Part shown: in pieces, positions 25,436-40,269 of the stretch
How positions within the stretch are numbered: the stretch's first letter is position 1
How the letters are laid out: each line of letters opens with the position of its first letter
NCBI GenBank assembly: GCA_024226335.1
Contig: JAAELY010000183.1
Span: 1-41,471, forward strand
DNA: 41,471 nt
From: a bacterium
GTDB lineage: Bacteria > Myxococcota_A > UBA9160 > SZUA-336
Direction of reading: 5' to 3'
Notes under the pieces: generated by a model
Told to the model about the DNA's origin: nothing
What the model saw: the letters and a program-made list of their open reading frames with translations, nothing else
Databases searched by the model: none
Translations under genes and position numbers: made by a program

Positions 25436-26494
25436 GTGGCAGGGAACAACACCAGAAAAACTGAGCAGTGGTCCGGCGATGGGACCCGGGAATCGGCGGA
25501 CCCCGCCGTGGCGAGTGTTCCCAGTAGCTGGGTCCTGCGCTTCGCGGAACTACTGGACGAAAAAGGGTTTTCGTCCGATCCGATACTCCGACACTGCGCG
25601 ATCGACCCCGGTCTTTTGCAGAAGAGCGAAGGCCGCGTGACGCTGGCTCAGTTCGCCGCATTGGTGACCGAGGCGCTGCGCGTCACGGGCGATCACGGTC
25701 TCGGCCTGGACTACGGTCTTCGAGGGCGAATTTCTGATTTCGGCATCCTGGGATACGCCCTGCTCAGCGCGCGGGATCTGGGCCAGGCGATCGAGTTCGT
25801 GAGCCGCTACTACGCGATCTTCGACCCGGTGATCAGCTTCGAGTTCGAGAGCGTGCCGCCGTACATCCAGGCGCGGGCGGTCGAATCCGCTCCCTTGGGA
25901 AACTTCGAGATCTTCGCCTATGAAGCCACTCTCGCCTGCACCGCTGCCATCGCAGGCGTGGTATTGGAAGAGCCGGTGGCTCTTTCGCGATTGAGCCTGA
26001 GCTACCACGAGCCACCGCACTCCGAACGTTACCCGGCCATATTCGGCTGCCGACCGGAATTCGATGCACCCCACACCAGCATTCAATTCGCGGCCCGCCA
26101 TCTAGAGGCCAGGCTCAAGTTCTCCAACCAGGAGATGGCGGAGATCTGCCGTCATCAATGCGAGCGACTCCACGCCGCAAAGGACCAGGGCAACCTGGTC
26201 CTGCAGATTCGGGAAAAGCTGCTCGAAACCCCGGGCCACTTCCCGGCCATGGCGGATGTCGCAGCCGCTCTGGGCATGAGCGTACGCAGCTTGCGCCGAC
26301 ACCTGAGTGCAGACGGCGTGACCTATCAGGAGTTATTCGATCAGGTGAGAAGAGACCTGGCGCTGGACTACCTGAAAAACTCGTTCCTCACCGTCGAACA
26401 GATCGCTCAACTGGTGGGCTACGGCGAGGCCGCAAACTTCCGCAAGGCCTTTCGCAGGTGGACAGGCAAGGCTCCGGGCGAGTTTCGCAGCTGA
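25436..26494 (+). CDS. AraC-family transcriptional regulator (arabinose-binding-like N-domain)
   Basis: 352 residues. The N-terminal ~200 residues resemble the 'Arabinose_bd' type found in OruR/ArgR-like regulators (GLGLDYGLRGRISDFGILGYALLSARDLGQAIEF). The C-terminal ~95 residues hold the double helix-turn-helix: MADVAAALGMSVRSLRRHL (first HTH) and VEQIAQLVGYGEAANFRKAFRRWTGKAPGEFR (second HTH and signature). It is a DNA-binding activator or repressor of unknown ligand. The start is GTG at 25436 with only weak ribosome-binding support. Divergence from the LLM gene suggests that gene as its target. Confidence 0.9.
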   Translation: MAGNNTRKTEQWSGDGTRESADPAVASVPSSWVLRFAELLDEKGFSSDPILRHCAIDPGLLQKSEGRVTLAQFAALVTEALRVTGDHGLGLDYGLRGRISDFGILGYALLSARDLGQAIEFVSRYYAIFDPVISFEFESVPPYIQARAVESAPLGNFEIFAYEATLACTAAIAGVVLEEPVALSRLSLSYHEPPHSERYPAIFGCRPEFDAPHTSIQFAARHLEARLKFSNQEMAEICRHQCERLHAAKDQGNLVLQIREKLLETPGHFPAMADVAAALGMSVRSLRRHLSADGVTYQELFDQVRRDLALDYLKNSFLTVEQIAQLVGYGEAANFRKAFRRWTGKAPGEFRS

Positions 26495-28609: not shown

Positions 28610-29641
28610 TCAGGCACTGCGAAGCGCCTTCGCGATCTCTCCCCACTTCGCCAGGTTCTTCGGGTTGCGCCTCAGATCGTCCATTGCAAGATAGGTCACG
28701 ACCCGCGTGGCGATCCCCGCGTAGCGCTCCAATAATGCGTCGGCCATGTCGTCCCAGCGCGCGGCGAGCGAGAAGTGAGAGAGCATCTCGTCCGTGATGG
28801 TGTTGGCCATGCCCCCGATGTCCCCTGTCTTCATCATCTTTCCGAGCTTCTCCGTCGTTCCCGGGAAACCGAGATCATCGAACTGGAAGGCGTAGTTTCG
28901 AGTCGAGCCGTAGAACCCGATCTGAGTGCGCGCAACCTGAGTTCCGCGTTCGCGCTCCTCGGGCGTATCGCCCGGGATCGCAAAGACGGGAATGATCAGG
29001 TCGATCTCGTTCACCCCACGGCCCGCACGTGCGGCGCCTTCGGCCACCGACGGGAGCAGACGGTTCTGCAGGTAGTGCACGGAGTGCATCGGGTGGACGT
29101 GTACACCGTCGCACAGCTCGCCAGCCACACGGCACATGAGCGGCCCTACCGCGGAGATGTCGATCTTCACGTCCTCGAAGTCGTGGCGCGGTGGCGCCCA
29201 TTGCGCTGGAAGCAGGTTCAGCGAGTAGTAGGGCCCTTCGTGCGCGAGCTTCTCCTCACCTCGAAACGCGCGAATGCACGCCTTGAAAGCACCGACGTAG
29301 TCGCGCATCTGCGGTGCGGGTTTGTCGAAGATCGCCCCATAACGACGCACGACGTGGCCCCGGACCTGGCTACCGAGTCCGAGACGAAAACGGCCCTCCG
29401 TGTTCTGGGCCATTTCCCAGGCCACTTGTGCCGAGATCATCGGGCTGCGGGGAAACGCGACCGCAATACCGGTGCTGAAGGAGAGCTTCGGAGCCGCCAT
29501 CGCCGCGGCCTGGATCATCATCCACGGAACGCTGCCCGCCTCGGTGAACAACATCCCGGAAAAGTCGGCCGACTCCAGATTGACGGCGAGTTCCGCACTC
29601 TCTTTCCAAGTCAGACCGCCTGTCATCAGATCGAAATCCAT
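28610..29641 (-). CDS. LLM-class F420/flavin-dependent oxidoreductase
   Basis: 343 residues from ATG 29641, with AAGGAG 6-7 nt upstream; the in-frame upstream ATG adds 15 residues before this site. The N-terminus FDLMTGGLTWKESAELAV, GIAVAFPRSPMISAQVAWEMA, GRFRLGLGSQVRGHVVRRYG and RMRDYVGAFKA-like text match the F420-type LLM group (TIGR03617-like). Such proteins often sit in steroid and cyclic-compound catabolic clusters. It is oriented away from the TetR gene, and the two probably share the island's control. The cofactor (F420 or FMN) cannot be settled from sequence alone. Confidence 0.88.
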   Translation of the reverse strand: MDFDLMTGGLTWKESAELAVNLESADFSGMLFTEAGSVPWMMIQAAAMAAPKLSFSTGIAVAFPRSPMISAQVAWEMAQNTEGRFRLGLGSQVRGHVVRRYGAIFDKPAPQMRDYVGAFKACIRAFRGEEKLAHEGPYYSLNLLPAQWAPPRHDFEDVKIDISAVGPLMCRVAGELCDGVHVHPMHSVHYLQNRLLPSVAEGAARAGRGVNEIDLIIPVFAIPGDTPEERERGTQVARTQIGFYGSTRNYAFQFDDLGFPGTTEKLGKMMKTGDIGGMANTITDEMLSHFSLAARWDDMADALLERYAGIATRVVTYLAMDDLRRNPKNLAKWGEIAKALRSA

Positions 29642-29712: not shown

Positions 29713-30333
29713 CTACTGCGCGAGCTCGTTCGCGAGTTCGGGCCAGCGTTCGGGGCGCAGTGCGCCGTGGAGAAACAGCCGTTTGAGTTCGCGAGCAAAT
29801 CGGCTCGTCTCGCTGCGGGCCTGATCTTCGCTCGTGCATCGCTGACGAACCATCAACGACCATACCAGGGCCGACGTCATTCCGATCACGCACAACATCT
29901 CAGCGTCGATGCCGTCCTGGCTGCGCGGGCTATCGGCGAGCCGTTCGAGAGCGGACACGTATTCATCCCAGCCGGGCTTGGACACGGTTTCGTCGTCTCT
30001 CAGGAGATGGAACATCCAGATCCGCGCGATGTCGGGATTCTCTCGGAAGTGGTGGGCAAAGAAGTCGATCTGATCACCCAGATCCCGGGTCTGGCCGAAC
30101 GTCTCGCGGAGTTCGCGCGCGAATTGCGCCCCGACCGCGTGGACCAGGTCTTCGCGTTGCCGGAAGTGCTGATAGGCGGTGCTCCGATTGAGGCCGGCTC
30201 TCTGAGCGACCGCGACGACCGTCAGTGCATCGAGTCCATCTTCTGCGACGAGCTGCTTCGCAGCGGCCAGAAGACTCGCGCGACTGGCTCGGGCGTCGCT
30301 TCGCAACGGTCGCTCGTTCGTATTGGCGCTCAT
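29713..30333 (-). CDS. TetR-family transcriptional regulator
   Basis: 206 residues. The N-terminal HTH is classic TetR: RASLLAAAKQLVAEDGLDALTVVAVAQRAGLNRSTAYQHFRQREDLV (about 18-62; recognition helix NRSTAYQHF). The C-terminal ligand domain is diverged, as usual. AGGAGGGCAC leads directly into the ATG. It is divergent from the enoyl-CoA isomerase/hydratase gene, with a 9-6-9 palindrome in the short gap, so it most likely represses that operon and perhaps itself. The ligand is probably a pathway CoA ester or acid; this is inference by analogy with FadR/KstR-type regulators. Confidence 0.93.
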   Translation of the reverse strand: MSANTNERPLRSDARASRASLLAAAKQLVAEDGLDALTVVAVAQRAGLNRSTAYQHFRQREDLVHAVGAQFARELRETFGQTRDLGDQIDFFAHHFRENPDIARIWMFHLLRDDETVSKPGWDEYVSALERLADSPRSQDGIDAEMLCVIGMTSALVWSLMVRQRCTSEDQARSETSRFARELKRLFLHGALRPERWPELANELAQ

Positions 30334-30365
30334 TGTGCCCTCCTGGGCTAAATCCTACACCATTG

Positions 30366-30394
30366 TTGCATTTAGTAAGTCCAACTTCTATGTT
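30366..30394 (+). promoter_or_regulatory. Promoter candidate of the catabolic operon
   Basis: TTGCAT (30366-30371), a 17-base spacer and TATGTT (30389-30394) lie 7 nt before the ATG at 30402. With no Shine-Dalgarno present, the first gene would be leaderless. The -10 lies inside the palindrome. Confidence 0.45.
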
Positions 30395-30400
30395 GGACTT
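30377..30400. promoter_or_regulatory. TetR-type operator: perfect 9-6-9 palindrome
   Basis: AAGTCCAAC (30377-30385), spacer TTCTAT (30386-30391) and GTTGGACTT (30392-30400) form a perfect inverted repeat between the divergent TetR and enoyl-CoA isomerase/hydratase genes. It covers the proposed -10 (TATGTT, 30389-30394) and stops one base before the ATG at 30402, so bound protein would block both polymerase and initiation. No second copy was noticed in the window. Confidence 0.75.
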
Positions 30401-30401
30401 G

Positions 30402-31211
30402 ATGAGTTCCTCTCCCCCCGATCCATCCATTCGCGTCAGCCGCCAGGGTGGGGTCGTGACGATCAGGCTCGATCGCCCCGAGAAGCGGAACTCGTTGACG
30501 CCGGCCCTTTTCGAGGCACTGGGGGCCCAGTTCGATGCCGTGGCCGCCAACCCCGAAGATCGGGTCCTGATTTTGACCGGAGCCGGTGAGGCTTTTTGCA
30601 CGGGAGCGGATCTGAGCGGGGGCGGCGACGCCGCCGAGCGCCTTGCAGGGGGACCTGTTTCTCGCGCCCAGTGGACGCGCCAGACCACTTCCGCCGCGCT
30701 CTCCCTTCACCGGATCGGCAAGCCTACGATCGCCGCGGTAAACGGCACGGCCGCAGGCGGGGGCTGCAACCTGGCGCTCGGTTGCGACATCGTCTTTGCT
30801 GCGGAGTCGGCGCGATTCAGCGAGATCTTCGTGAATCGCGGACTCGCACTCGACTACGCGGGCACCTGGTTGCTACCGCGCCTGGTAGGTCTGCAGCGAG
30901 CCAAGGACCTGGCTTTCAATGGCGCTCTGATCGACGCGCGCCAGGCCCTGGAGTTGGGACTGGTGCTCGAGGTCGTTCCCGATCACGCACTCGCGGCTCG
31001 CGTTGCGGACTACGCGCGGGTTCTCGCCTCCAAACCACCGATCGCGCTCGGCCTGATCAAGAACGGCTTGAATCGCGCCACAGCCTGGGACTTTGAAACC
31101 GCTCTCGAGTACGAGGTAGAGGCGCAGTCTCAATGCCTCGGCACACATGACTTCCGCGAGGCCATGGCCGCGTGGATGCAGAAGCGCGAAGGCAACTACG
31201 AAGGTCGCTAG
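30402..31211 (+). CDS. Enoyl-CoA hydratase/isomerase family protein
   Basis: 269 residues, crotonase fold. The oxyanion-hole motifs are AFCTGADLS (about 65-72) and GTAAGGGCNLALGCDIVFA. The glutamate that in true hydratases follows the second motif (GGCE) is Asn123 here. The second glutamate is present (Glu141 in RFSEIF) and Asp151 sits in the LALDYAGTW loop, an arrangement seen in PaaG-like isomerases and other crotonases. It may therefore isomerise a double bond rather than hydrate. The start at 30402 is preferred over ATG 30390, which lies inside the palindromic operator. First gene of the ten-gene catabolic operon. Confidence 0.9.
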   Translation: MSSSPPDPSIRVSRQGGVVTIRLDRPEKRNSLTPALFEALGAQFDAVAANPEDRVLILTGAGEAFCTGADLSGGGDAAERLAGGPVSRAQWTRQTTSAALSLHRIGKPTIAAVNGTAAGGGCNLALGCDIVFAAESARFSEIFVNRGLALDYAGTWLLPRLVGLQRAKDLAFNGALIDARQALELGLVLEVVPDHALAARVADYARVLASKPPIALGLIKNGLNRATAWDFETALEYEVEAQSQCLGTHDFREAMAAWMQKREGNYEGR

Positions 31212-31239
31212 GCGATCGCAAAAACAAAATGGAGCCCCC

Positions 31240-32337
31240 ATGACGCTTCCGAAAACCAGCCTTGCAATGGTGCAGACGGCCGCTCGCACCCTCGAGCCCA
31301 TGGATATTCCGCTACCGGAGATCGACGACGACTCCGGTCTGGTTCGAATCGAAGCCTGCGGCATCTGCGGCAGCGATTACGAGCAGTTCGAGGGAGTCCT
31401 TCGCACACCCATGCCGGCCGTGCCCGGCCACGAACCACTCGGGGTGGTCGCCAAGATCGGCGATCGTGCGGCGCAGCGTTGGGGTGTGGACGTGGGCGAT
31501 CGAGTTGCCGTAGAGACCATGCTCTCGTGCCACCACTGCGGCCCTTGTCTCGGTGGTTCCTATCATCTCTGCAACTCGCGACGCATCTACTCCTACATCC
31601 CGCTCTCGGACGCTCCCGGACTCTGGGGGTCCTACGCCCAGTACATGTACCTCGACCCGAACTGTGTGGTTCACAAGGTCGACTCGAGCCTCGATGCGTC
31701 GACGGCCGTGATGTTCAATCCTTTGGGTGCGGGCTTTCGCTGGGCCGTCGAGATTCCGGGAACCGGCCCGGGTGACACCGTTCTGATTCAGGGTCCCGGG
31801 CAACGAGGCCTGGCGAGCGTGCTCGCCTGCCGCGAGGCCGGTGCAGCGAAGATCATCGTCACCGGGCTCGAAGCCGACGCCCAGAAGCTCGCGCTCGCGC
31901 GCGAGTTCGGAGCGCACGCCACCATCGACGTCCAAAACGAGAATGTCCGCACTCGCGTCAAGGAACTCACCGATGGACGCGGAGCCGATGTGGTCGTCGA
32001 CGTCTCTTCTTACGCCACCGAGCCCGTCGCGCAGTCCCTCGACTACGTGCGCATGGGCGGCACGGTCGTACTCGCCGGGGTGAAGGGCTTCAAAGAGGTC
32101 CCGGGCTTTGTTTCAGACAAGGTCGTCATGAAGGAAATCACCATCAAAGGTGCGATCGGCGTCACGAGTACGGGCTACGCCAACGCGATCCGCCTGCTCG
32201 AATCGCGCAAGTACCCGGTCGAGCGCATGCACACCCACGACTTCGACCTGCGAGAGGCCGAGCTCGCCATTCGCACCCTGGCCCGGGAGATCCCCGGCGA
32301 GGAATCGATTCACTCCTGCTTGATTCCCGAAGCATAA
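31240..32337 (+). CDS. Zinc-dependent alcohol dehydrogenase (MDR family)
   Basis: 365 residues. GroES-like N-domain with catalytic-zinc ligands Cys40 (EACGICGSDYE) and His64-Glu65 (PGHEPLG). The structural-zinc loop Cys97, Cys100, Cys103, Cys111 (C-x2-C-x2-C-x7-C) is complete. The Rossmann part reads VLIQGPGQRGLASVLACREAGA, with GPGxxG in place of the usual GxGxxG, and then VVDVSSYATEPVAQSLDYVRMGGTVVLAG. It oxidises or reduces a pathway alcohol/aldehyde or ketone with NAD(P); the substrate is unknown. GGAG lies before the ATG at 31240. It follows the crotonase gene after 28 bases. Confidence 0.92.
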   Translation: MTLPKTSLAMVQTAARTLEPMDIPLPEIDDDSGLVRIEACGICGSDYEQFEGVLRTPMPAVPGHEPLGVVAKIGDRAAQRWGVDVGDRVAVETMLSCHHCGPCLGGSYHLCNSRRIYSYIPLSDAPGLWGSYAQYMYLDPNCVVHKVDSSLDASTAVMFNPLGAGFRWAVEIPGTGPGDTVLIQGPGQRGLASVLACREAGAAKIIVTGLEADAQKLALAREFGAHATIDVQNENVRTRVKELTDGRGADVVVDVSSYATEPVAQSLDYVRMGGTVVLAGVKGFKEVPGFVSDKVVMKEITIKGAIGVTSTGYANAIRLLESRKYPVERMHTHDFDLREAELAIRTLAREIPGEESIHSCLIPEA

Positions 32338-32348
32338 GGACCACGTAA

Positions 32349-33194
32349 ATGGAAGAAATCCGCAGCTGGGTCGAAAACTCACCGTACAGCAAGTTTCTGG
32401 GCGTTCGCCTCGACCATATCGACGAGAAGAGCGCGCGTTTGATCCTGCCGTATCAAGACGAGAACTCGAACCCCGGCAAGGCTCTGCACGGTGGCTGTGC
32501 CGCCTCACTCGGTGCGATCGGCGGCCAGGCCGTGGCGCGCGCTGCGCTCGGTCCCGAGTCCGGCGCCTGGCACACGGCCCAGATGCAGGTGAGCTACCTC
32601 GCGGCCGCAATCGGCGAGGACGTGATCGCCGAAGCGGAGTTGCTGCGACGCGGCAAGGAACTCTGCTTCGTTTCAATCGGCGTCAAGACTGCGGAAGGGA
32701 AACAGATCGCGAGCATCACGACCACCGTGCGCGGGCGCATGGGCGCGGAACTCGTCGAGACCGCTGCATCCAGCGGCGATCACGGGGAAAGTGATCCCGG
32801 CCCGATGGGCCCGCATATCGGCAAGGTTCCGTTCATCGGCAACCGCGGCATCGCTGTTGAACACATGGCCGGCGGAACTTCCCGACTGGTCATGCCCTAT
32901 TCGGAGAACAACGCGGACCTCGCCGGCGGAGTGCACGAAGGCGCCGTGTTGGCGCTCCTGGATACGACCGGCGCCATGGGATCGTGGGCCGAATCGGGTC
33001 CCGGCCGTTATAAAGCTTCGACCGTTTCCATGCAGCTCCAGAACCTCGCGCCCGCCCCGAAGGCCGATCTCGTCGCCTATGGTCGCTGCGCACAACGCGA
33101 CGGTGCGATTTTCTGGACCGACGTCGAGGTGGCGAGCGCGGTCGACGGTCGCATCGCTTCTCGCGGCACCGTCCTCTACCGGATCGTGACCTGA
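32349..33194 (+). CDS. Double-hotdog acyl-CoA thioesterase (PaaI-like, two domains)
   Basis: 281 residues with two tandem hotdog domains. The first (about 10-130) has the PaaI motif ALHGGCAASLGA (His47-Gly-Gly). The second (about 155-280) has AGGVHEGAVLALLDTTGAMG with His196/Glu197 and Asp205. Single PaaI proteins are about 140 residues and dimerise, so this is a fused pseudo-dimer. The likely role is release of CoA from pathway intermediates that stall, or recycling of CoA. AAGGA precedes the ATG, 11 bases after the dehydrogenase stop. Confidence 0.85.
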   Translation: MEEIRSWVENSPYSKFLGVRLDHIDEKSARLILPYQDENSNPGKALHGGCAASLGAIGGQAVARAALGPESGAWHTAQMQVSYLAAAIGEDVIAEAELLRRGKELCFVSIGVKTAEGKQIASITTTVRGRMGAELVETAASSGDHGESDPGPMGPHIGKVPFIGNRGIAVEHMAGGTSRLVMPYSENNADLAGGVHEGAVLALLDTTGAMGSWAESGPGRYKASTVSMQLQNLAPAPKADLVAYGRCAQRDGAIFWTDVEVASAVDGRIASRGTVLYRIVT

Positions 33195-33242
33195 AACGTT
33201 CCACTCGCAGGAAATAGACCCCTTTTCACGAGGAGACCCTCC

Positions 33243-34079
33243 ATGCCTATCAATCCCGATTCAGTCGGCCTAAAGGGTGAGCCCGTCCGACGCTCCTGGA
33301 AGTCCAAAGACGCACTCCTGTACGCGCTCGGTGTCGGTGCCGGAACTGAAGAGCTGGCCTTTACCACGGAGAACACCAAGGACACTCCCCAACGCGTGTT
33401 GCCGACCATGGCCGTCGTTCTGGGCGGAGGCGGTGTTCCGTTCGACAAGCTCGGGTCCTTCAACGCGGCGTTGATGCTCCACGGTGCCCAGGGCATCGAG
33501 TTGCTCGACGAGATTCCCGCGGAAGGCGAGATCGAAAGCACGGGATCGATTGGGGCGATCTGGGACAAGGGCAAGGCCGCCTCGGTGGAGATGCTCTCGG
33601 AGTCGATCAACGTCGCCACGGGCAAGCCGCTGTTCCGCACGAAGATGACCGCCTTCCTGCGCGGAGAAGGGGGCTGGGGTGGCGAGCGCGGCCCTTCGCC
33701 GACCTGGGAGTTGCCGAGCAAGAAGGCGGACCACGAGGTTCGCTACTCGACCCGGGCAGATCAGCCGCTGATCTACCGGCTGTCGGGTGATCGCAACCCG
33801 CTCCACTCAGATCCTTCGTTTGCAAAGCTGGGCGGATTCGAGCGACCCATCCTGCACGGTCTTTGCAGCTACGGCTTCACGGGCCGTGCACTCTTGCACT
33901 CGTTATGCGACGGCGACCCCGCGCGCTTCAAGGCAATGGACGCGCGCTTCTCCAAGCCGGTCATGCCCGGTGACGACCTCGTCGTATCGATCTGGGCCAA
34001 TGGAAACGAAGCGCAGTTTCAGACAAAGAATCAGGACGGCGACGTGGTCATCGACCAGGGCGTCGTGAAGTTCGCCTAG
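33243..34079 (+). CDS. MaoC-family double-hotdog enoyl-CoA hydratase
   Basis: 278 residues. Two hotdog domains: an N-terminal one lacking catalytic residues (AVVLGGGGVPFDKLG) and a C-terminal hydratase-2 domain with the full motif YRLSGDRNPLHSDPSFAKLGGF (Asp183, Asn185, His188), then PILHGLCSYGFTGR. This is the architecture of MFE-2/ChsH-type (R)-specific 2-enoyl-CoA hydratases, which accept bulky substrates. It would add water to the enoyl-CoA made by the dehydrogenases immediately downstream. GAGGAG lies about 8 nt before the ATG. Confidence 0.92.
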   Translation: MPINPDSVGLKGEPVRRSWKSKDALLYALGVGAGTEELAFTTENTKDTPQRVLPTMAVVLGGGGVPFDKLGSFNAALMLHGAQGIELLDEIPAEGEIESTGSIGAIWDKGKAASVEMLSESINVATGKPLFRTKMTAFLRGEGGWGGERGPSPTWELPSKKADHEVRYSTRADQPLIYRLSGDRNPLHSDPSFAKLGGFERPILHGLCSYGFTGRALLHSLCDGDPARFKAMDARFSKPVMPGDDLVVSIWANGNEAQFQTKNQDGDVVIDQGVVKFA

Positions 34080-34087
34080 CACCGGCC

Positions 34088-35329
34088 ATGGCTGAGATTC
34101 GCGACGAAGAACTGCGGGAACGCACCCGCGCTCTCCTCGAGGAGGTCCATCCGGACGATCCCGCCGTGGATCGCGTGACCTTCCGAGGTGCGCAGTTCGA
34201 CCACGGCCTGGGTATGGTGCATTTCCCGGAAGGGCGCGGGGGGCTCGGATTCCAGCCGAAGCAGCAACAGGTCGTCAATGACGAGCTGCGACTGCGGACA
34301 AAGACCCGTTACCGGGACTCCATCGTCAATCTGATCGGCATTGGCATGGCGGCCCCCACTCTGCTGACCTACGCATCCGAAGAGCTTCAAAAGCGCTTCT
34401 TGCGGCCGATCTTCACCGGTGAAGAGATCTGGTGTCAGCTTTTCAGCGAGCCCGGCGCGGGATCCGACCTCGCCGCACTCGGAACGCGGGCCGAGCGCGC
34501 GGGCGAAGAGTGGCTCGTCAACGGACAGAAGGTCTGGACAACGCTTGCGCATGTCTCCCGCTTCGGAATGCTACTTGCGCGCACGGACCCGGAACGACCC
34601 AAGCACGACGGCCTCAGCTACTTCATCCTCGACATGCAAGCTCCCGGCGTCGAAGTTCGGCCGCTGCATCAGATCACGGGTGAAGCCGAGTTCAACGAGG
34701 TCTTCCTGAGCGACGTGCGAATTCCCGACGATTGGATGCTGGGAAACGAAGGACAGGGCTGGCGAGTCGCGATCACGACCTTGATGAACGAGCGTGTTGC
34801 AATCGGCGGCGGTGAAGGCGTTGGCCGCCGAAAACCGATCGACCACCTGCTCGACATCTGGAAACAGCGGACTGAATCGCCAACGGCCGCCCGGGGTTCC
34901 GCCGCGCGCACAGCGGTGCAGCGCGATCGGGTGACTCAGCTTTGGATCGAATCCCGTCTTCTCGAAATAACATCGAGCCGAGCACGAACGGCGCGGCGAC
35001 AGGGAAATCCCGGACCCGAAGGAGCCGTTGGAAAGCTCACATCTGCGGAGCTGACCCAGCGGATCTACGAGGCTTGCCTCGACGTACTGGGAAGCGACGG
35101 CCTCGCCTACGCACCCGGCTACGAACTACGGCGCCCCAGCGGAATCTCGCGCGATCCCCAGGACGCCGCCATGCATTGGTATCTGCGCAGCCGCGCAGCC
35201 TCGATCGAGGGCGGAACCTCACAGATCATGCGGAATATTCTCGGCGAGCGGATCCTCGGACTTCCGAGTGAGCCCCGCGTCGACAAGGACCGCGCCTGGT
35301 CCGCGCTGCGCAAGGGGGATGCGGAATGA
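34088..35329 (+). CDS. Acyl-CoA dehydrogenase, alpha-like subunit
   Basis: 413 residues. FAD/substrate region WCQLFSEPGAGSDLAALG, VNGQKVWTTLAHVSRFGML, DVRIPDDWMLGNEGQGWRVA, and C-terminal ASIEGGTSQIMRNILGERILGLP with Glu374 at the expected catalytic-region position. The sequence style is that of FadE-type dehydrogenases from steroid and bulky-acid pathways, which work as alpha2beta2 heteromers rather than homotetramers. The next gene encodes a second, shorter dehydrogenase whose start overlaps this stop (ATGA at 35326-35329), fitting a stoichiometric complex. No Shine-Dalgarno is seen; translation may be coupled to the MaoC gene 8 bases upstream. Confidence 0.94.
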   Translation: MAEIRDEELRERTRALLEEVHPDDPAVDRVTFRGAQFDHGLGMVHFPEGRGGLGFQPKQQQVVNDELRLRTKTRYRDSIVNLIGIGMAAPTLLTYASEELQKRFLRPIFTGEEIWCQLFSEPGAGSDLAALGTRAERAGEEWLVNGQKVWTTLAHVSRFGMLLARTDPERPKHDGLSYFILDMQAPGVEVRPLHQITGEAEFNEVFLSDVRIPDDWMLGNEGQGWRVAITTLMNERVAIGGGEGVGRRKPIDHLLDIWKQRTESPTAARGSAARTAVQRDRVTQLWIESRLLEITSSRARTARRQGNPGPEGAVGKLTSAELTQRIYEACLDVLGSDGLAYAPGYELRRPSGISRDPQDAAMHWYLRSRAASIEGGTSQIMRNILGERILGLPSEPRVDKDRAWSALRKGDAE

Positions 35330-36474
35330 CGGCCGCCACTGCGCAACCCGTCGCCTCCGAACCGCTCGAACTGGGATTCACGGATGAACAGGAACAGCTT
35401 CGCGAGCTCGTGCGCAGCTTCCTGGCCGCGAACTCGAGCGAAGAAGACGTACGCGCCCTCATGCAAACGGAGGAAGGCTTCGACGAGAAGGTTTGGAGCC
35501 AGATGGCGGAAGAACTGGGCCTTCCCGGTCTCCTGATCCCCGAGCAGTTCGGAGGAGCGGGCCTAACAGCCGTCGAAGTCGGGATCGTACTGGAAGAGAT
35601 GGGGCGCACGCTCTACTGCGGCCCCTTCCTTTCGACTGCGGTGATGGCCGCGAGCGCGCTGGTCGAAAGCGGAGATTCCGCCGCTCAGGCGGAACTCCTC
35701 CCGGACATCGCAACCGGGCAGACGCGCATGACACTGGCCTTTGCGGAGCAGGGCCAGCCCGGCTTCGATCCGGAAACCCTTGCCTGCGACGCTCTGGACG
35801 ATGGGGATGGGGTGCTTCTCAATGGCGTGAAGGACTCGGTGGTCGACGGTGCCACGGCGGACTCGATCCTGGTCATCGCCCGCGGCCGCGATGGCCTCGG
35901 TCTCTTCCATGTCGATGGCGCGGCCACAGGACTCGAGCGCACTCCGGTCCCGACGCTGGACCCTACGCGCAAGCTCGCGCGGCTGCACTTCTCGAAGACA
36001 CCGGCCAGGCCGATCGCTGCCGATTTCGCGGCGATCGAAAGCACGCTCGAGCGAATCGTCGTCGCGATGGCCTGTGAGCAGGTTGGAGGAGCGCAGCACT
36101 GTCTCGACATGGCCGTCGAATACGCACAGGAGCGCATTCAATTCGGCCGACCCATCGGTTCCTTTCAGGCCATCAAGCACAAGTGCGCCGACCTGCTCAT
36201 CGGCGTCGAAGCGGCGAAGTCAGCGGCACGCTACGCAGCGGCCTGTGCGGCTCATCGGCCCGACGAACGGGCCGTCGCCGCGAGCATGGCAAAGGCGTAC
36301 TGCTCCGATGTCTACACCCGCGCGGCGGAGGAGAACCTGCAGATCCACGGCGGCATCGGCTTCACCTGGGAGCACTCCTGCCACCTCTATCTGAAACGAG
36401 CGCGAAGTTCCCAGCTTCTGTTCGGCGATCCACTTCATCATCGCGAGCACCTGGCGTCGCTCGTCGGAATCTGA
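35326..36474 (+). CDS. Acyl-CoA dehydrogenase, beta-like subunit lacking the C-terminal Glu motif
   Basis: 382 residues. The fold is recognisable: LGFTDEQEQLRELVRSFLA at the start, LGLPGLLIPEQFGGAGL, ERIQFGRPIGSFQAIKHKCADL and IHGGIGFTWEHSCHLYLKRAR near the end. Where catalytic dehydrogenases have (I/Y)EGTS, this protein reads LLFGDPLHH (Phe366-Gly-Asp368), so that glutamate is missing. The middle SEPG/E-x-GSD loop is also replaced (FAEQGQPGFD). Both features fit the non-catalytic or half-site subunit of heteromeric FadE pairs. It is translationally coupled to the alpha-like gene. Confidence 0.9.
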   Translation: MTAATAQPVASEPLELGFTDEQEQLRELVRSFLAANSSEEDVRALMQTEEGFDEKVWSQMAEELGLPGLLIPEQFGGAGLTAVEVGIVLEEMGRTLYCGPFLSTAVMAASALVESGDSAAQAELLPDIATGQTRMTLAFAEQGQPGFDPETLACDALDDGDGVLLNGVKDSVVDGATADSILVIARGRDGLGLFHVDGAATGLERTPVPTLDPTRKLARLHFSKTPARPIAADFAAIESTLERIVVAMACEQVGGAQHCLDMAVEYAQERIQFGRPIGSFQAIKHKCADLLIGVEAAKSAARYAAACAAHRPDERAVAASMAKAYCSDVYTRAAEENLQIHGGIGFTWEHSCHLYLKRARSSQLLFGDPLHHREHLASLVGI

Positions 36475-36502
36475 CGCCATCACCTGGCAAGGAGGACAAC
36501 CT

Positions 36503-37267
36503 TTGGAAAGCGAGACTCGGAAGATCGACGTCGGCGGCCACAAGCTGCGCCTGAGCGTCGCCGGAAATGGTCCTCCGGATTTTCTCTGCCTTCACGGCCT
36601 CGTCGATCGCATCGAGATCTGGAAGCGCCTGGTCGGACCGCTCTCGGAGCGGGGACGCGTCGCCTGTATCGACCAGCGCGGACACGGAGAGTCAGAGGCA
36701 CCTCCCGGACCCTATCGACGGGAGGACCTCGCGTCCGACGTATCCGCCACGATTCGCGAACTCGGAGCGGAGAAGGTCGTACTGGTCGGACATTCGATGG
36801 GCGGGATCATCTCGATGACCACGGCCCTCAGCCACCCCGAGCAGGTCGCTGGCCTGGTCCTGATCGGCACGGCGAGCCAGTGCAATGAGAAGACCGCGGG
36901 CTGGTACGAGCGAATCGCGCAGGCCGGCGAGAAGGACGGCAACGCGGGTCTCGCACAGGCCATCTACAGGGGAAGGGGCAATAAGGTCATCGAGGGCGAC
37001 GCCCAGGGGATCGCCGATGTGACGCGAACGCTCAAGAGCCTCTACGAAGATCCGCTGACACCCAAGCTTTCGGCCATCACCTGTCCCGTCCTGCTGATCG
37101 TGGGCGACAAGGACCCGATGGGACCCAAGGCATCCTCGATCATCGCGGCGCGATTTCCCGACGCGGAACTCGTGACGGTTGCCGATTGCGGCCACTGGGT
37201 GCACGTGGAAGAACCCGAAGCTGTGCTCGACGCAATCGATCGTTTCCTCGCGCGACTCGATTCATAA
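36503..37267 (+). CDS. Alpha/beta hydrolase
   Basis: 254 residues from a TTG start supported by AAGGAGG about 7 nt upstream (36489-36495). The catalytic triad is visible: Ser98 in VLVGHSMGGI, Asp202 or Asp204 in IVGDKDPMGP, and His231 in ADCGHWVHVEEP. The oxyanion loop is CLHGLVDRIEIW. It is a soluble cytoplasmic protein without signal peptide, typical of meta-cleavage-product, lactone or ester hydrolases. Within this operon it could open a ring cleavage product or lactone; the substrate is not determinable. Confidence 0.9.
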   Translation: MESETRKIDVGGHKLRLSVAGNGPPDFLCLHGLVDRIEIWKRLVGPLSERGRVACIDQRGHGESEAPPGPYRREDLASDVSATIRELGAEKVVLVGHSMGGIISMTTALSHPEQVAGLVLIGTASQCNEKTAGWYERIAQAGEKDGNAGLAQAIYRGRGNKVIEGDAQGIADVTRTLKSLYEDPLTPKLSAITCPVLLIVGDKDPMGPKASSIIAARFPDAELVTVADCGHWVHVEEPEAVLDAIDRFLARLDS

Positions 37268-37308
37268 CCCGCAGCCATTTCAGACCCCCTATCCGAACGG
37301 AGAGAATC

Positions 37309-37884
37309 ATGAGCGAACCGCGAATTCCCCTGCTTCCGATCGACGAAGCGAAGCAGGCGGCCTCCAAGATGAATGTTCACGAGGCCGTCGCCGACCTGAG
37401 CATCTTCCGCATCCTGTTTCGCCAGCCCCAACTGGCGAAACGAGTGAACGATCTCTTGATGACCTTGCTCTTCAAAGGCTCACTCGATGGACGCCTGCGT
37501 GAACTCATCATCATGCGCATCGGCTGGGCCACCGGGTCGGTCTACGAATGGACCCAACACTGGCGAATCGCACGACAGCTCGGTGTGGAAGAATCCGATC
37601 TGCTGGCTCTACGCGACTGGCAGAAACACACGCACTGGTCCGATGCCGACCGAGCCATCCTGCGCGCGACCGATGAGACCCTCGAAAACGGAGCCATCTC
37701 AGGAGAGACCTGGACCGAGTGCGCGAAACACCTGCACAGCGATGCCGAGCAACTCGAACTGGTTTGCGCCATCGGCGCCTGGCGGATGATCTCGCAGATC
37801 CTCAAGAGTCTGGAAGTACCGCTCGAAGACGGCGTAGCTCCGTGGCCGCCGGACGGGCTTCGCCCGGAAGGTGAGGTCTCCTGA
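37309..37884 (+). CDS. Carboxymuconolactone decarboxylase-like (AhpD-fold) protein
   Basis: 191 residues. The CMD core reads LDGRLRELIIMRIGWATGSVYEWTQHWRIARQLGV (about 59-93), with Glu65 and His84 conserved. The redox Cys-x-x-Cys pair of AhpD is absent (TGSVYEW), which places it with the decarboxylase-like/unknown CMD proteins common in catabolic clusters. GGAGAGAATC is the ribosome-binding region for the ATG at 37309; an in-frame upstream start at 37186 overlaps the hydrolase and is rejected. The role is unknown; it may act on a lactone or peroxide intermediate. Confidence 0.87.
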   Translation: MSEPRIPLLPIDEAKQAASKMNVHEAVADLSIFRILFRQPQLAKRVNDLLMTLLFKGSLDGRLRELIIMRIGWATGSVYEWTQHWRIARQLGVEESDLLALRDWQKHTHWSDADRAILRATDETLENGAISGETWTECAKHLHSDAEQLELVCAIGAWRMISQILKSLEVPLEDGVAPWPPDGLRPEGEVS

Positions 37885-37885
37885 C

Positions 37886-38740
37886 ATGCCGATGAATACC
37901 GAACTCGTAGGACGATCGTATCCCGAGACCCGCTATCGAGTCAGCACCGAAGCGACCCAGAAGTACGCGCTGGCGACAAACGATTTCAATCCTCGATTCT
38001 TCGAAGGCGCTCCCGACCTGATCGCACCCCCTGTGTTCCCAGTCGTCTATCACCCGCGCGCACTCGGACAGGCGATCGGCGACCCCGAGCTTGGCATCGA
38101 CTTCAAACGCGCCCTCCACGGTGAGCAGGACATGCGCTTTCACGCGCCGATCCGCCCGGATGACGAGATCACCACGGCAGCTCGCATTGAGTCGATTCGC
38201 GCAAAGGGAACGGGCGAGACCATCACGCTGGACCTGGTTTCGCACAATCAGAACGGCGTGTTGGTGGAGTCGACGCTCTTCACGCTATTCGTACGAGGAC
38301 CGTCGGGCGCTCCGAGCAACGACCGCGAAAAGAGCGCCGCCGAGCGCCCGGCTCCGGCAAGCGATCCGATCGCGCGAGTTGCGCAACAACTCGACGACGA
38401 CCAGACGTTCCGCTACTCGGAGGCGTCGGGAGATCGCACGAAGATCCATCTGGACGAAGGGGCGGCCCGACGAGCCGGGCTTCCCGGCATCATCGGGCAC
38501 GGGCTGTGCACGATGGCCTTCGTTTCACGGGCCCTCATTGACGAGTTGGCCGACGGCGATCCGACCCGACTTGCACGCCTATCGTTGCGTTTCGCTCAGC
38601 CTGTGATTCCGGGCGAAACACTCGAAACTTCGATCTGGTCTTCGGACACGCCGGGAACCTTCAGCTTCGAAACAGTCGACCCCCGCAAAGCCCCGGTTGT
38701 TTCTCAGGGTCTTGTCGAGATCCGTTCCGAGACATCATGA
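37886..38740 (+). CDS. MaoC-like double-hotdog dehydratase
   Basis: 284 residues from ATG 37886, one base after the previous stop; ATG 37892 is an alternative. The N-terminal hotdog resembles FAS1-type dehydratase domains (YALATNDFNPRFFEG, APPVFPVVYHP, LHGEQDMRFHAPIRPDDEI). The C-terminal one has FRYSEASGDRTKIHLDEGAARRAGL, in which Asp183 and His188 of the hydratase motif are kept but Asn-Pro is replaced by Thr-Lys. GIIGHGLCTMAFVSRAL follows. It is a second hydratase/dehydratase of the operon, probably with a different substrate from the one at 33243. Its stop overlaps the ligase start (ATGA at 38737-38740). Confidence 0.85.
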   Translation: MPMNTELVGRSYPETRYRVSTEATQKYALATNDFNPRFFEGAPDLIAPPVFPVVYHPRALGQAIGDPELGIDFKRALHGEQDMRFHAPIRPDDEITTAARIESIRAKGTGETITLDLVSHNQNGVLVESTLFTLFVRGPSGAPSNDREKSAAERPAPASDPIARVAQQLDDDQTFRYSEASGDRTKIHLDEGAARRAGLPGIIGHGLCTMAFVSRALIDELADGDPTRLARLSLRFAQPVIPGETLETSIWSSDTPGTFSFETVDPRKAPVVSQGLVEIRSETS

Positions 38741-40269
38741 CGCCCGGTTCAATCATCAGCGGGGAAAGGATCCTGACGCGCGAACGCTTGTTCAAGCGCG
38801 CGGGCCAGGCGTCGAGTGGTTTCAACTCTTTGGGAATCGGCGCGGGCGATGCGGTGGCCATCATGCTCCGCAACGACTTCCCGTTCTTCGAAGCGACTTT
38901 CGCAGCGGGTCGCCTGGGCGCTCACGCGGTCCCGATCAACTGGCACTACATGGGCGAGGAGACCGAGCACATCCTGCGCGATTCCGGGGCGAAGGCCCTG
39001 GTCGTGCACGCAGATCTGCTTGCGCAGATCGAAGACTCCCTTCCCGAAAACGTGACCGTACTCGTCGTTCCGACTCCGACCGAGATCCGCGAGGCCTACC
39101 GTATCGATCCCGAACGAGCGGAGGTTCCAGCGGACCGCCTGAGCTGGGACGCCTGGATCGACGGATTCCCCGACTGGGTAGAGCCGCCCCGCGATTCACC
39201 CGGTGCCATGATCTACACGTCGGGTACAACGGGTCAGCCCAAGGGCGTGCGCCGGAAGCCCGCAAACGCGGAGCAGATGTCGCTGGGCCGGAAGATCGGC
39301 GCCCAGCTGTACGGCTTCGGTCCGCAGATGCGCGCAGTGGTAACCGGACCGATGTATCACATCGCACCGAACACCTTTGCCATCGTGGCTGCGGCCCTCG
39401 GCGACCGCGTCGTACTCCAGCCCCGCTTCGACCCCGAAGAGCTACTGGCATTGATCGAACAGCACGAGGTCAGTTCACTCAATCTCGTGCCCACGATGTT
39501 CAACCGCCTGCTTCGACTTCCCGATTCGGTTCGAACTCGCTACGACCTCAGCTCGCTGACCAATGTCGTACACAACGCCGCGCCCTGCGCCCCCGAGGTC
39601 AAGCGCGCCATGATCGAATGGTGGGGCCCGGTCATCTGGGAACTCTACGGCGGTACCGAGTCGGGACCTGCGGCCGGTTGCGGAAGTGAAGAATGGCTTG
39701 CGCATCCGGGTAGCGTGGGAAAGGCCCTGCCCGGCTCGACGATTCGCATCCTCGATGACGATGGAAAGGAATTGCCATCGGGTGAGGTAGGCGAGGTGTT
39801 CATGCGCAGCGAAGCGAACTCCGAGTTCACCTACCACGGACGGGAAGACGAACGACGCGCGATCGAACGCACCGGTCTGATCACTCTGGGAGACATGGGG
39901 TACCTGGACGGGGACGGCTTCCTGTTTCTGTGCGATCGCAAGCGAGACATGGTCATCTCGGGCGGTGTCAACATCTACCCCGCGGAGATCGAATCCGTCC
40001 TGATCGGAGTGGAAAGCGTCGCCGATTGTGCGGTCTTCGGCATCCCGGACGACGAGTTTGGCGAATCACTGATCGCAATCATCGAGCCTGAACCGGGAAC
40101 CTCCCCGAGCGCCGATTCCATAAAGCTGGCGTTGGAAGGAAGGCTCGCGCGCTACAAGATCCCGCGCCGAATCGAGTTTTCGACGGAGCTTCCGCGGGAA
40201 GACTCCGGGAAGATCTTCAAACGCAAGCTCCGCGACCAGTACTGGAGCGACGAGAACCGACGCATCTGA
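38737..40269 (+). CDS. AMP-forming acyl-CoA ligase (FadD-like)
   Basis: 510 residues. Adenylation motifs: MIYTSGTTGQPKGVRR (A3), WELYGGTESGPAAG (A5), LGDMGYLDGDGFLFLCDRKRDMVISGG (A7/A8 hinge), NIYPAEIESVL and the C-terminal EDSGKIFKRKLRD with catalytic Lys492. The short N-terminus (no long lead before LTRERLFKRA) is like FadD-type ligases for bile-acid, steroid or bulky carboxylates. It would activate the pathway acid to its CoA ester with ATP. It is the last gene of the operon and is translationally coupled to the MaoC-like gene. Confidence 0.93.
   Translation: MTPGSIISGERILTRERLFKRAGQASSGFNSLGIGAGDAVAIMLRNDFPFFEATFAAGRLGAHAVPINWHYMGEETEHILRDSGAKALVVHADLLAQIEDSLPENVTVLVVPTPTEIREAYRIDPERAEVPADRLSWDAWIDGFPDWVEPPRDSPGAMIYTSGTTGQPKGVRRKPANAEQMSLGRKIGAQLYGFGPQMRAVVTGPMYHIAPNTFAIVAAALGDRVVLQPRFDPEELLALIEQHEVSSLNLVPTMFNRLLRLPDSVRTRYDLSSLTNVVHNAAPCAPEVKRAMIEWWGPVIWELYGGTESGPAAGCGSEEWLAHPGSVGKALPGSTIRILDDDGKELPSGEVGEVFMRSEANSEFTYHGREDERRAIERTGLITLGDMGYLDGDGFLFLCDRKRDMVISGGVNIYPAEIESVLIGVESVADCAVFGIPDDEFGESLIAIIEPEPGTSPSADSIKLALEGRLARYKIPRRIEFSTELPREDSGKIFKRKLRDQYWSDENRRI

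Follow-up and report, generated by a model that had tools for sequence, protein, structure and literature searches.

The window analysed here, a stretch of 41,471 nt of DNA, carries on its minus strand (29713..30333) a gene for a TetR-family regulator of 206 amino acids, with an AGGAGG Shine-Dalgarno sequence 5' of its ATG, and divergently on the plus strand (30402..31211) a gene for a member of the enoyl-CoA hydratase/isomerase family (PF00378, E = 7.7e-51; start codon ATG 30402). The gap between them, 30334-30401, measures 68 bp. The hydratase is the first gene of a probable operon, the rest of which (31237..40269, plus strand) was delimited by profile matches and partial synteny in relatives. 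It encodes a Zn alcohol dehydrogenase, a thioesterase, a MaoC protein, two acyl-CoA dehydrogenases, an alpha/beta hydrolase, a CMD-family protein, a HadA/HadB-like protein that scores below the cut-off of that model, and an acyl-CoA ligase that scores above the PRK12406 cut-off. Downstream of tetR and on the same strand (28610-29641, minus) lies a luciferase-like monooxygenase gene (TIGR03617, F420-dependent, 280.1 bits against a cut-off of 278.15), which is possibly co-transcribed with tetR and under the same switch.

The regulator contains a TetR_N helix-turn-helix domain (PF00440, E = 2e-12; 47.1 bits, cut-off 24), and its AF2 model (pLDDT 87.3) has 11 helices and an all-helical TetR-like fold. 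The 50 Foldseek matches listed are transcription regulators, many of them named as TetR-family (E-values from 1.9e-5 to 4.0e-4, TM-scores of 0.44-0.70 by query length), and include 3qbm (TetR), RutR, FadR, KstR2, AvaR1 and SmeT at 13-22% identity. In a separate comparison the protein matched KstR2 chains over residues 15-71 only. None of the 13 named NCBIfam TetR equivalog models listed, among them MtrR, ScbR, TetR, FasR, BetI, AcrR, MftR, FabR and PsrA, scored above its cut-off (best 31.7 bits, against cut-offs of 118-330). An acyl-CoA ligand is suggested by the content of the operon.

Searching 90 genomes of the class, we found the window and ten further loci at E<=1e-50, that is 11 loci in 10 genomes, and L029 completes a close set of 12. 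The TetR proteins of this set are 57-100% identical and form a clade with 100/99 support, and more distant relatives are 37-46% identical. Duplicate records were used once (L026=L003, L027=L006, L028=L005, L030=L008, L031=L012). A phylum-wide search of 377 genomes gave no orthologs beyond the loci already found, and the viral contigs searched held no relative of the TetR protein. Named relatives are Myxococcota, Myxococcales or Deltaproteobacteria metagenome-assembled genomes (MAGs), plus one entry labelled 'bacterium'.

A divergent hydratase accompanies tetR in nine of the 12 close loci, window included; none was found at L010, L011 and L029. When matches starting less than 150 nt from a better one were merged, the 11 relative loci contained the dehydrogenase in seven cases, the thioesterase in six and the alpha/beta hydrolase in six (on the tetR side in L163, L165 and L166), so that the gene cluster is conserved in part. 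The first gene is the dehydrogenase in L166 (the contig of L010) and the ligase in L167 (the contig of L011); L029 has tetR only, and L160 has tetR and the hydratase only, its contig ending inside the hydratase. The two acyl-CoA dehydrogenases of the window have weak matches only (25-37% identity) in the relative loci. At about 8160-8430 of L159 (G022:C74), a dehydrogenase match (94% identical) and a hydrolase match lie within about 270 nt; the dehydrogenase gene looks cut short and the intervening genes appear to be lacking, by deletion or assembly fault. In the distant relatives L012, L017 and L023 the divergent neighbours look, by eye, dehydrogenase- or thiolase-type, which suggests control of catabolic genes by the wider TetR subfamily.

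The initial annotation had described, in the gap between the TetR gene and the operon, a perfect 9-6-9 inverted repeat ending one base before the ATG of the first gene. Both statements are correct: this palindrome, hereafter Op2 (30377..30400, strandless, AAGTCCAACTTCTATGTTGGACTT), reads AAGTCCAAC-TTCTAT-GTTGGACTT, with 9-nt arms that are 100% complementary and 6 nt apart, and the single base 30401 separates it from ATG 30402. A second ATG, at 30390, lies inside the repeat and in frame with the hydratase. Allowing up to three mismatches, Op2 matched once in the 41-kb window and in none of 100 shuffles, and in the genome of origin (5.75 Mb) it matched, exactly, at its own site only; since the reversed-pattern control gave just 2 forward and 2 reverse matches there at the same threshold, this uniqueness alone is no evidence. 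Shuffling the gap 20,000 times produced a perfect inverted repeat of 9 bp, with a loop no longer than 10, in 29 cases. The window itself holds six distinct repeats of this kind (nine raw rows), and the case for Op2 therefore rests on position and conservation, on the grounds of which a chance palindrome is rejected. Following the pattern of its relatives, the site would be better described as CAACA-N4-TGTTG with flanks, from which the core in the window departs once (CAACT).

The idea of one TetR operator at this position stood only in part. A further site, Op1 (30350..30373, strandless, AAATCCTACACCATTGTTGCATTT), was missed by the initial annotation and is predicted from an imperfect dyad and its conservation; its dyad arms, 30348-30359 and 30364-30375, are 83% complementary. 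It lies 27 bp upstream of Op2, centre to centre. Together the sites appear as two copies of the dyad AAATCCAACA-N4-TGTTGGATTT and span 51 of the 68 bp of the gap. Averaged over the 12 close loci, dyad pairing shows two peaks, of 7.42 and 7.83 of 12 pairs (the next being 4.58), and both coincide with the centres of Op1 and Op2. Ten of these loci have two sites within three mismatches of CAACA-N4-TGTTG, spaced by 27 bp in nine and by 28 bp in L006; at this threshold L003 has Op1 alone and L008 has Op2 alone. Neither site is kept intact everywhere: Op1 is absent from L008 (0/12 pairs, Op2 having 8/12), and Op2 is badly decayed in L006 (4/12) and weak in L003 (6/12), so that two good sites are not needed at every locus. 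In L008 (G071:C37) the promoter is the same and Op2 is good, but Op1 is lacking and tetR lies farther away; this locus may be regarded as a natural single-operator variant.

The motif is tied to this TetR subfamily. CAACA-N4-TGTTG, with at most one mismatch, occurs upstream of 23 of 25 TetR loci (11 of the 12 close ones, window included, and 12 of 13 distant ones), so that the palindrome is indeed present near orthologous regulators, where the initial annotation had proposed to look for it. The miss among the distant loci is L021, a 69-residue match at a contig start with 110 nt upstream, which was left out of the identity alignment, the tree and the two-site count. At the same threshold none of 29 further TetR genes from the genome of origin had the core (2 of 29 did at two mismatches), nor did any of 2,971 random, partly overlapping chunks of the window; these control genes were the best 30 of 68 TetR_N matches, less L115, which had only 52 nt upstream. 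The 12 distant relatives counted have one strong site each (0-1 mismatch), their other matches being shifted overlaps of that site or strays with three mismatches. Residues R50, T52, Y54 and H56, in the region of the recognition helix, are invariant in all 24 aligned TetR proteins, which fits the shared core, and they may contact it. Op1 and Op2 are very probably neighbouring binding sites of the adjacent TetR-type repressor.

The operon promoter is embedded in both sites. A -35 element TTGCAT (30366..30371, plus strand) falls in the right arm of Op1, TTG being present here in 12/12 loci, and a -10 element TATGTT (30389..30394, plus strand) occupies the centre and right arm of Op2, with TATGTT in 11 of the 12 loci and TATGTA in L003. 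The spacer from TTGNNN to TATGTN is 17 bp in 11 close loci and 18 bp in L006, and the register of the -35 in Op1 and the -10 in Op2 is the same across the 12, which bears out the earlier statement that the palindrome overlaps the -10. Because the comparison allowed up to three substitutions, finding some match at every locus is in part a given. Exact matches to the pattern TGTTGCA-N18-TATGTTGG number six in the 90 class genomes, all at close loci, and there are five matches with one mismatch, three of them at close loci (one on the minus strand, G082). With up to two mismatches the pattern occurs in 59 of the 90 genomes, and the reversed control also matches most genomes and is equally common in many of them (in the genome of origin, 1+1 for the pattern against 2+1 for the control); this control was pooled over mismatch numbers and offers no separate comparison for the exact matches. 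A sigma-70 consensus scan of the gap gave no match, because TTGCAT shares 3 of 6 consensus bases and the rule demands 4. Part of the conservation of the right arms stems from the promoter itself. Moreover, the asymmetry of the right arm of Op1 falls within the -35 hexamer (TTGCAT, not TTGGAT), which suggests a compromise of operator and promoter. A mirrored TATGTT with TTGTAR on the tetR side was seen only in L005 and L029, and a mirrored tetR promoter was dropped as a general feature. Downstream of Op2, 10 nt past TATGTT, five close loci (L007, L009, L010, L011, L022) share TAGCGC (TAGCGCG in four); its carriers lack the leaderless layout considered below, and it is a conserved initially transcribed or downstream element.

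By the usual spacing, transcription from this promoter could start at G30401, giving a leader of 1 nt, or at A30402 (predicted start 30401..30402, plus strand, 7-8 nt past the end of the -10 and placed from the position of that element). Since it overlaps the -10, ATG 30390 would be missing from any message made from this promoter, and it is excluded as its start codon. ATG 30402 is supported as the start codon, as first proposed. The distance from the end of the -10 to the start codon is 7 nt in the window, in L004 (GTG) and in L006, and 8 nt in L003. Among the nine hydratase-linked loci, the other five lack an in-frame start at 7-8 nt: in L005 a TTG stands 33 nt past the -10, the start that matches the window protein lies at 97 nt in L007, 102 nt in L009 and 131 nt in L022 (with a further in-frame ATG at 55 nt in L007 and at 27 nt in L009), and the candidates in L008, at 71-125 nt, are uncertain. 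These five loci seem to have leaders. In the tree the window, L003 and L004 form a clade (100/99), and L006 stands apart, unresolved with L005 and L029, a topology compatible with one gain of the leaderless state or with several.

Read directly, GTTGGACTTG in front of the hydratase ATG contains no Shine-Dalgarno sequence, and TATGTT begins 13 nt before that ATG. In the survey by Zheng et al. (PMC3160421), the signal of TA-led leaderless genes is TANNNT some 12 bp ahead of the start codon, and leaderless genes are reported in 8 of 33 delta-proteobacterial genomes, averaging 15.8% of genes there. The genome of origin gives such a signal: in two disjoint sets of 334 and 300 crude gene calls, TANNNT stands 12 nt before a candidate ATG or GTG in 17 and 18 cases, against 4.5 and 4.4 per background position, although the background itself rises as high as 11 and 8 at individual positions. 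For the reversed motif, with which many -10 boxes likewise agree, 12 and 10 cases were counted at 12 nt. At the hydratase's own distance of 13 nt the counts are 8 (the hydratase itself left out) and 5, for a background of about 4.5, so the hydratase start is one base off the genome's peak (13 versus 12). The leaderless first message that the initial annotation suggested is supported as probable by the 7-8 nt distance in four loci and by this genomic signal; the hydratase message would probably be leaderless, as in the three orthologs L003, L004 and L006.

Taken together, a two-operator TetR repressor switch over a leaderless operon promoter is the reading in which we place good confidence, the operator and leaderless claims being taken jointly. 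Dimers of the adjacent TetR-type protein would bind Op1 (30350-30373) and Op2 (30377-30400), covering the -35 and the -10 (TTGCAT-N17-TATGTT) respectively and keeping RNA polymerase off. With 51 of the 68 bp taken up by the operators, the tetR promoter would be blocked as well, and autoregulation is likely. The protein might be released by a metabolite of the pathway, plausibly an acyl-CoA, upon which transcription would proceed from about 30401-30402 to give a leaderless mRNA (0-1 nt of leader) read from ATG 30402. The observations behind this reading are both dyads, their conservation and tie to this TetR subfamily, the constant -35/-10 register and the distance from the -10 to the ATG; from these we infer binding, repression rather than activation, autoregulation, the inducer and the transcription start. 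The simple on/off switch proposed earlier is supported in placing an operator over the -10 and is amended in that two operators would lie over the -35 and the -10.

The alternatives to this two-operator switch are of low probability, and the one with most weight concerns the message and is compatible with the operator role. It is improbable, though less so than the others, that the mRNA has a leader, either because transcription begins upstream, with the palindrome serving as a hairpin in the RNA, or because translation begins at ATG 30390 or farther upstream. In favour are the reading frame, which stays open as far upstream as 30225 and includes ATG 30390, and five of the nine hydratase-linked loci, which have no start codon at 7-8 nt and seem leadered; against this, the conserved TATGTT register makes 30389-30394 promoter DNA, Op2 of L006 is hardly self-complementary (4/12), and the -10 of L003 and L006 ends just 1-5 nt after the first in-frame start. 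We also consider it unlikely, to a slightly greater degree, that the reported palindrome alone functions, Op1 being a half-match that arose by chance. The perfect repeat here is Op2, and L008 has Op2 (8/12 pairs) without Op1 (0/12), but the two dyad peaks are about equal in height over the 12 loci, Op1 is the better dyad in five of them (L003, L004, L005, L006, L009), and Op1-type sites in G033 and G082 match the wide consensus with no mismatch.

That the TetR protein is an activator or a weak repressor instead of an occluding repressor has a small probability: some members of the family do activate a neighbour, AtrA being an example in the cited section of PMC3511530, but the orthologs share a register in which Op2 lies over the -10 and Op1 over the -35, as would suit occlusion rather than recruitment. 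Least probable of all, and only barely worth retaining, is that a different regulator, for instance the AraC-type protein encoded at 25436-26494, occupies the sites and that the TetR protein acts elsewhere. An AraC-type gene does lie near tetR in two of the 11 relative loci (L159 and L167), yet the motif follows the TetR clade even at L010, L011 and L029, where no divergent hydratase was found, and it is present in 12 of 13 distant TetR relatives and absent, at up to one mismatch, from 29 other TetR genes. In these two loci the AraC-type gene is within a few kb of tetR and its product is 73% and 66% identical to that of the window, a hint of a second pathway regulator.

The initial annotation also proposed to define a regulon by searching for the palindrome elsewhere in the genome. 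This search was run, and the wide consensus, with up to three mismatches, matched in the genome of origin at Op1 and Op2 only (control 0), for which reason the regulator looks local and its regulon seems confined to this locus. In the 90 class genomes it gave 35 rows, namely 26 at close loci, three at distant ones (G023, G053) and six elsewhere, for a control of one row, it being understood that a palindrome can count on both strands. Five of the six stray rows lie in stop-free stretches of 849, 564, 1,554, 1,710 and 282 nt, the sixth (G071:C87) being left out of this measure; the true site lies in 1,020 nt by the same measure, and stop-free length therefore does not discriminate. A genome-wide regulon was considered and rejected: the looser pattern TCCAACN5TGTTGSA, at two mismatches, matched 53+62 times and its reversed control 39+41 times, a modest surplus to which Op1 and Op2 contribute on both strands, and with the wide consensus Op1 and Op2 alone were found. 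Elsewhere in the same genome (G000:C156:4313-4345) there are two near-copies of GCCAACAAATYTGTTGSC, one of them perfectly palindromic, with starts 15 bp apart, a possible operator pair of another regulator.

A familiar counterpart is the control region of tetR/tetA of the Tn10 type. Two of its features are present here: a divergent gap, of 68 bp, and two like operators. In the part of PMC3511530 that treats it, a divergent TetR-type gene and its target likewise face each other across a short gap, of 81 bp compared with the present 68 bp, with two palindromic operators bound by dimers; its operators, however, are of 15 bp, whereas the predicted dyads here are of about 24 bp with a different core (PMC3511530). 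Moreover, the target there is an efflux pump and here a catabolic operon, whose first message is probably leaderless. According to the same section, divergent TetR-type genes with gaps below 200 bp mostly repress their neighbour (PMC3511530). Control of ring catabolism by the TetR family is described in the cited portion of PMC5348764 for the KstR/KstR2 steroid genes of actinobacteria (kstD3 of Rhodococcus ruber), and kstD3 is similar in having two putative tandem KstR sites around its promoter and a first gene predicted in silico to be leaderless (PMC5348764). The KstR motif TnnAACnnGTTnnA nevertheless has two bases between AAC and GTT, whereas Op2 here reads AAC-N6-GTT, and by eye no AACnnGTT, as in the KstR operator, occurs in the 68-bp gap. 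In Mycobacterium tuberculosis, Rv3160c-rv3161c offers a further likeness, a TetR-like repressor whose efficient binding in EMSA requires two inverted repeats together with the -10 region, as given in the cited part of PMC7810876; its repeats are nested (inner and outer) and the regulator lies inside its own operon, unlike the tandem sites and divergent gene found here (PMC7810876). Unlike TA-led leaderless genes in general, the -10 here would double as an operator arm, at a distance of 13.

The proposed switch is well conserved and of a type that is common in bacterial gene control, and the general understanding of TetR regulation is unchanged. A target, an operator and a start codon are now assigned, with good support, to a regulator of a lineage seen, by its named relatives, through MAGs; the single palindrome first noticed is half of a conserved double site, and the orthologs share a promoter but differ in their leaders. 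Our literature queries, in which the motif string itself was not included, returned no paper on this TetR subfamily. With a confidence that falls somewhat short of even, we propose that uncultured Myxococcota possess a so far undescribed TetR subfamily with the core CAACA-N4-TGTTG, comprising a single-site branch and a two-site branch whose sites straddle the -35 and -10, and that in some two-site members the start codon coincides with the transcription start, so that the message is leaderless and operator, promoter and start are fused in about 55 bp, while close relatives have the same switch with a leader. If this is true, these loci would constitute a natural series on the gain or loss of leaderless genes under an unchanged repressor.
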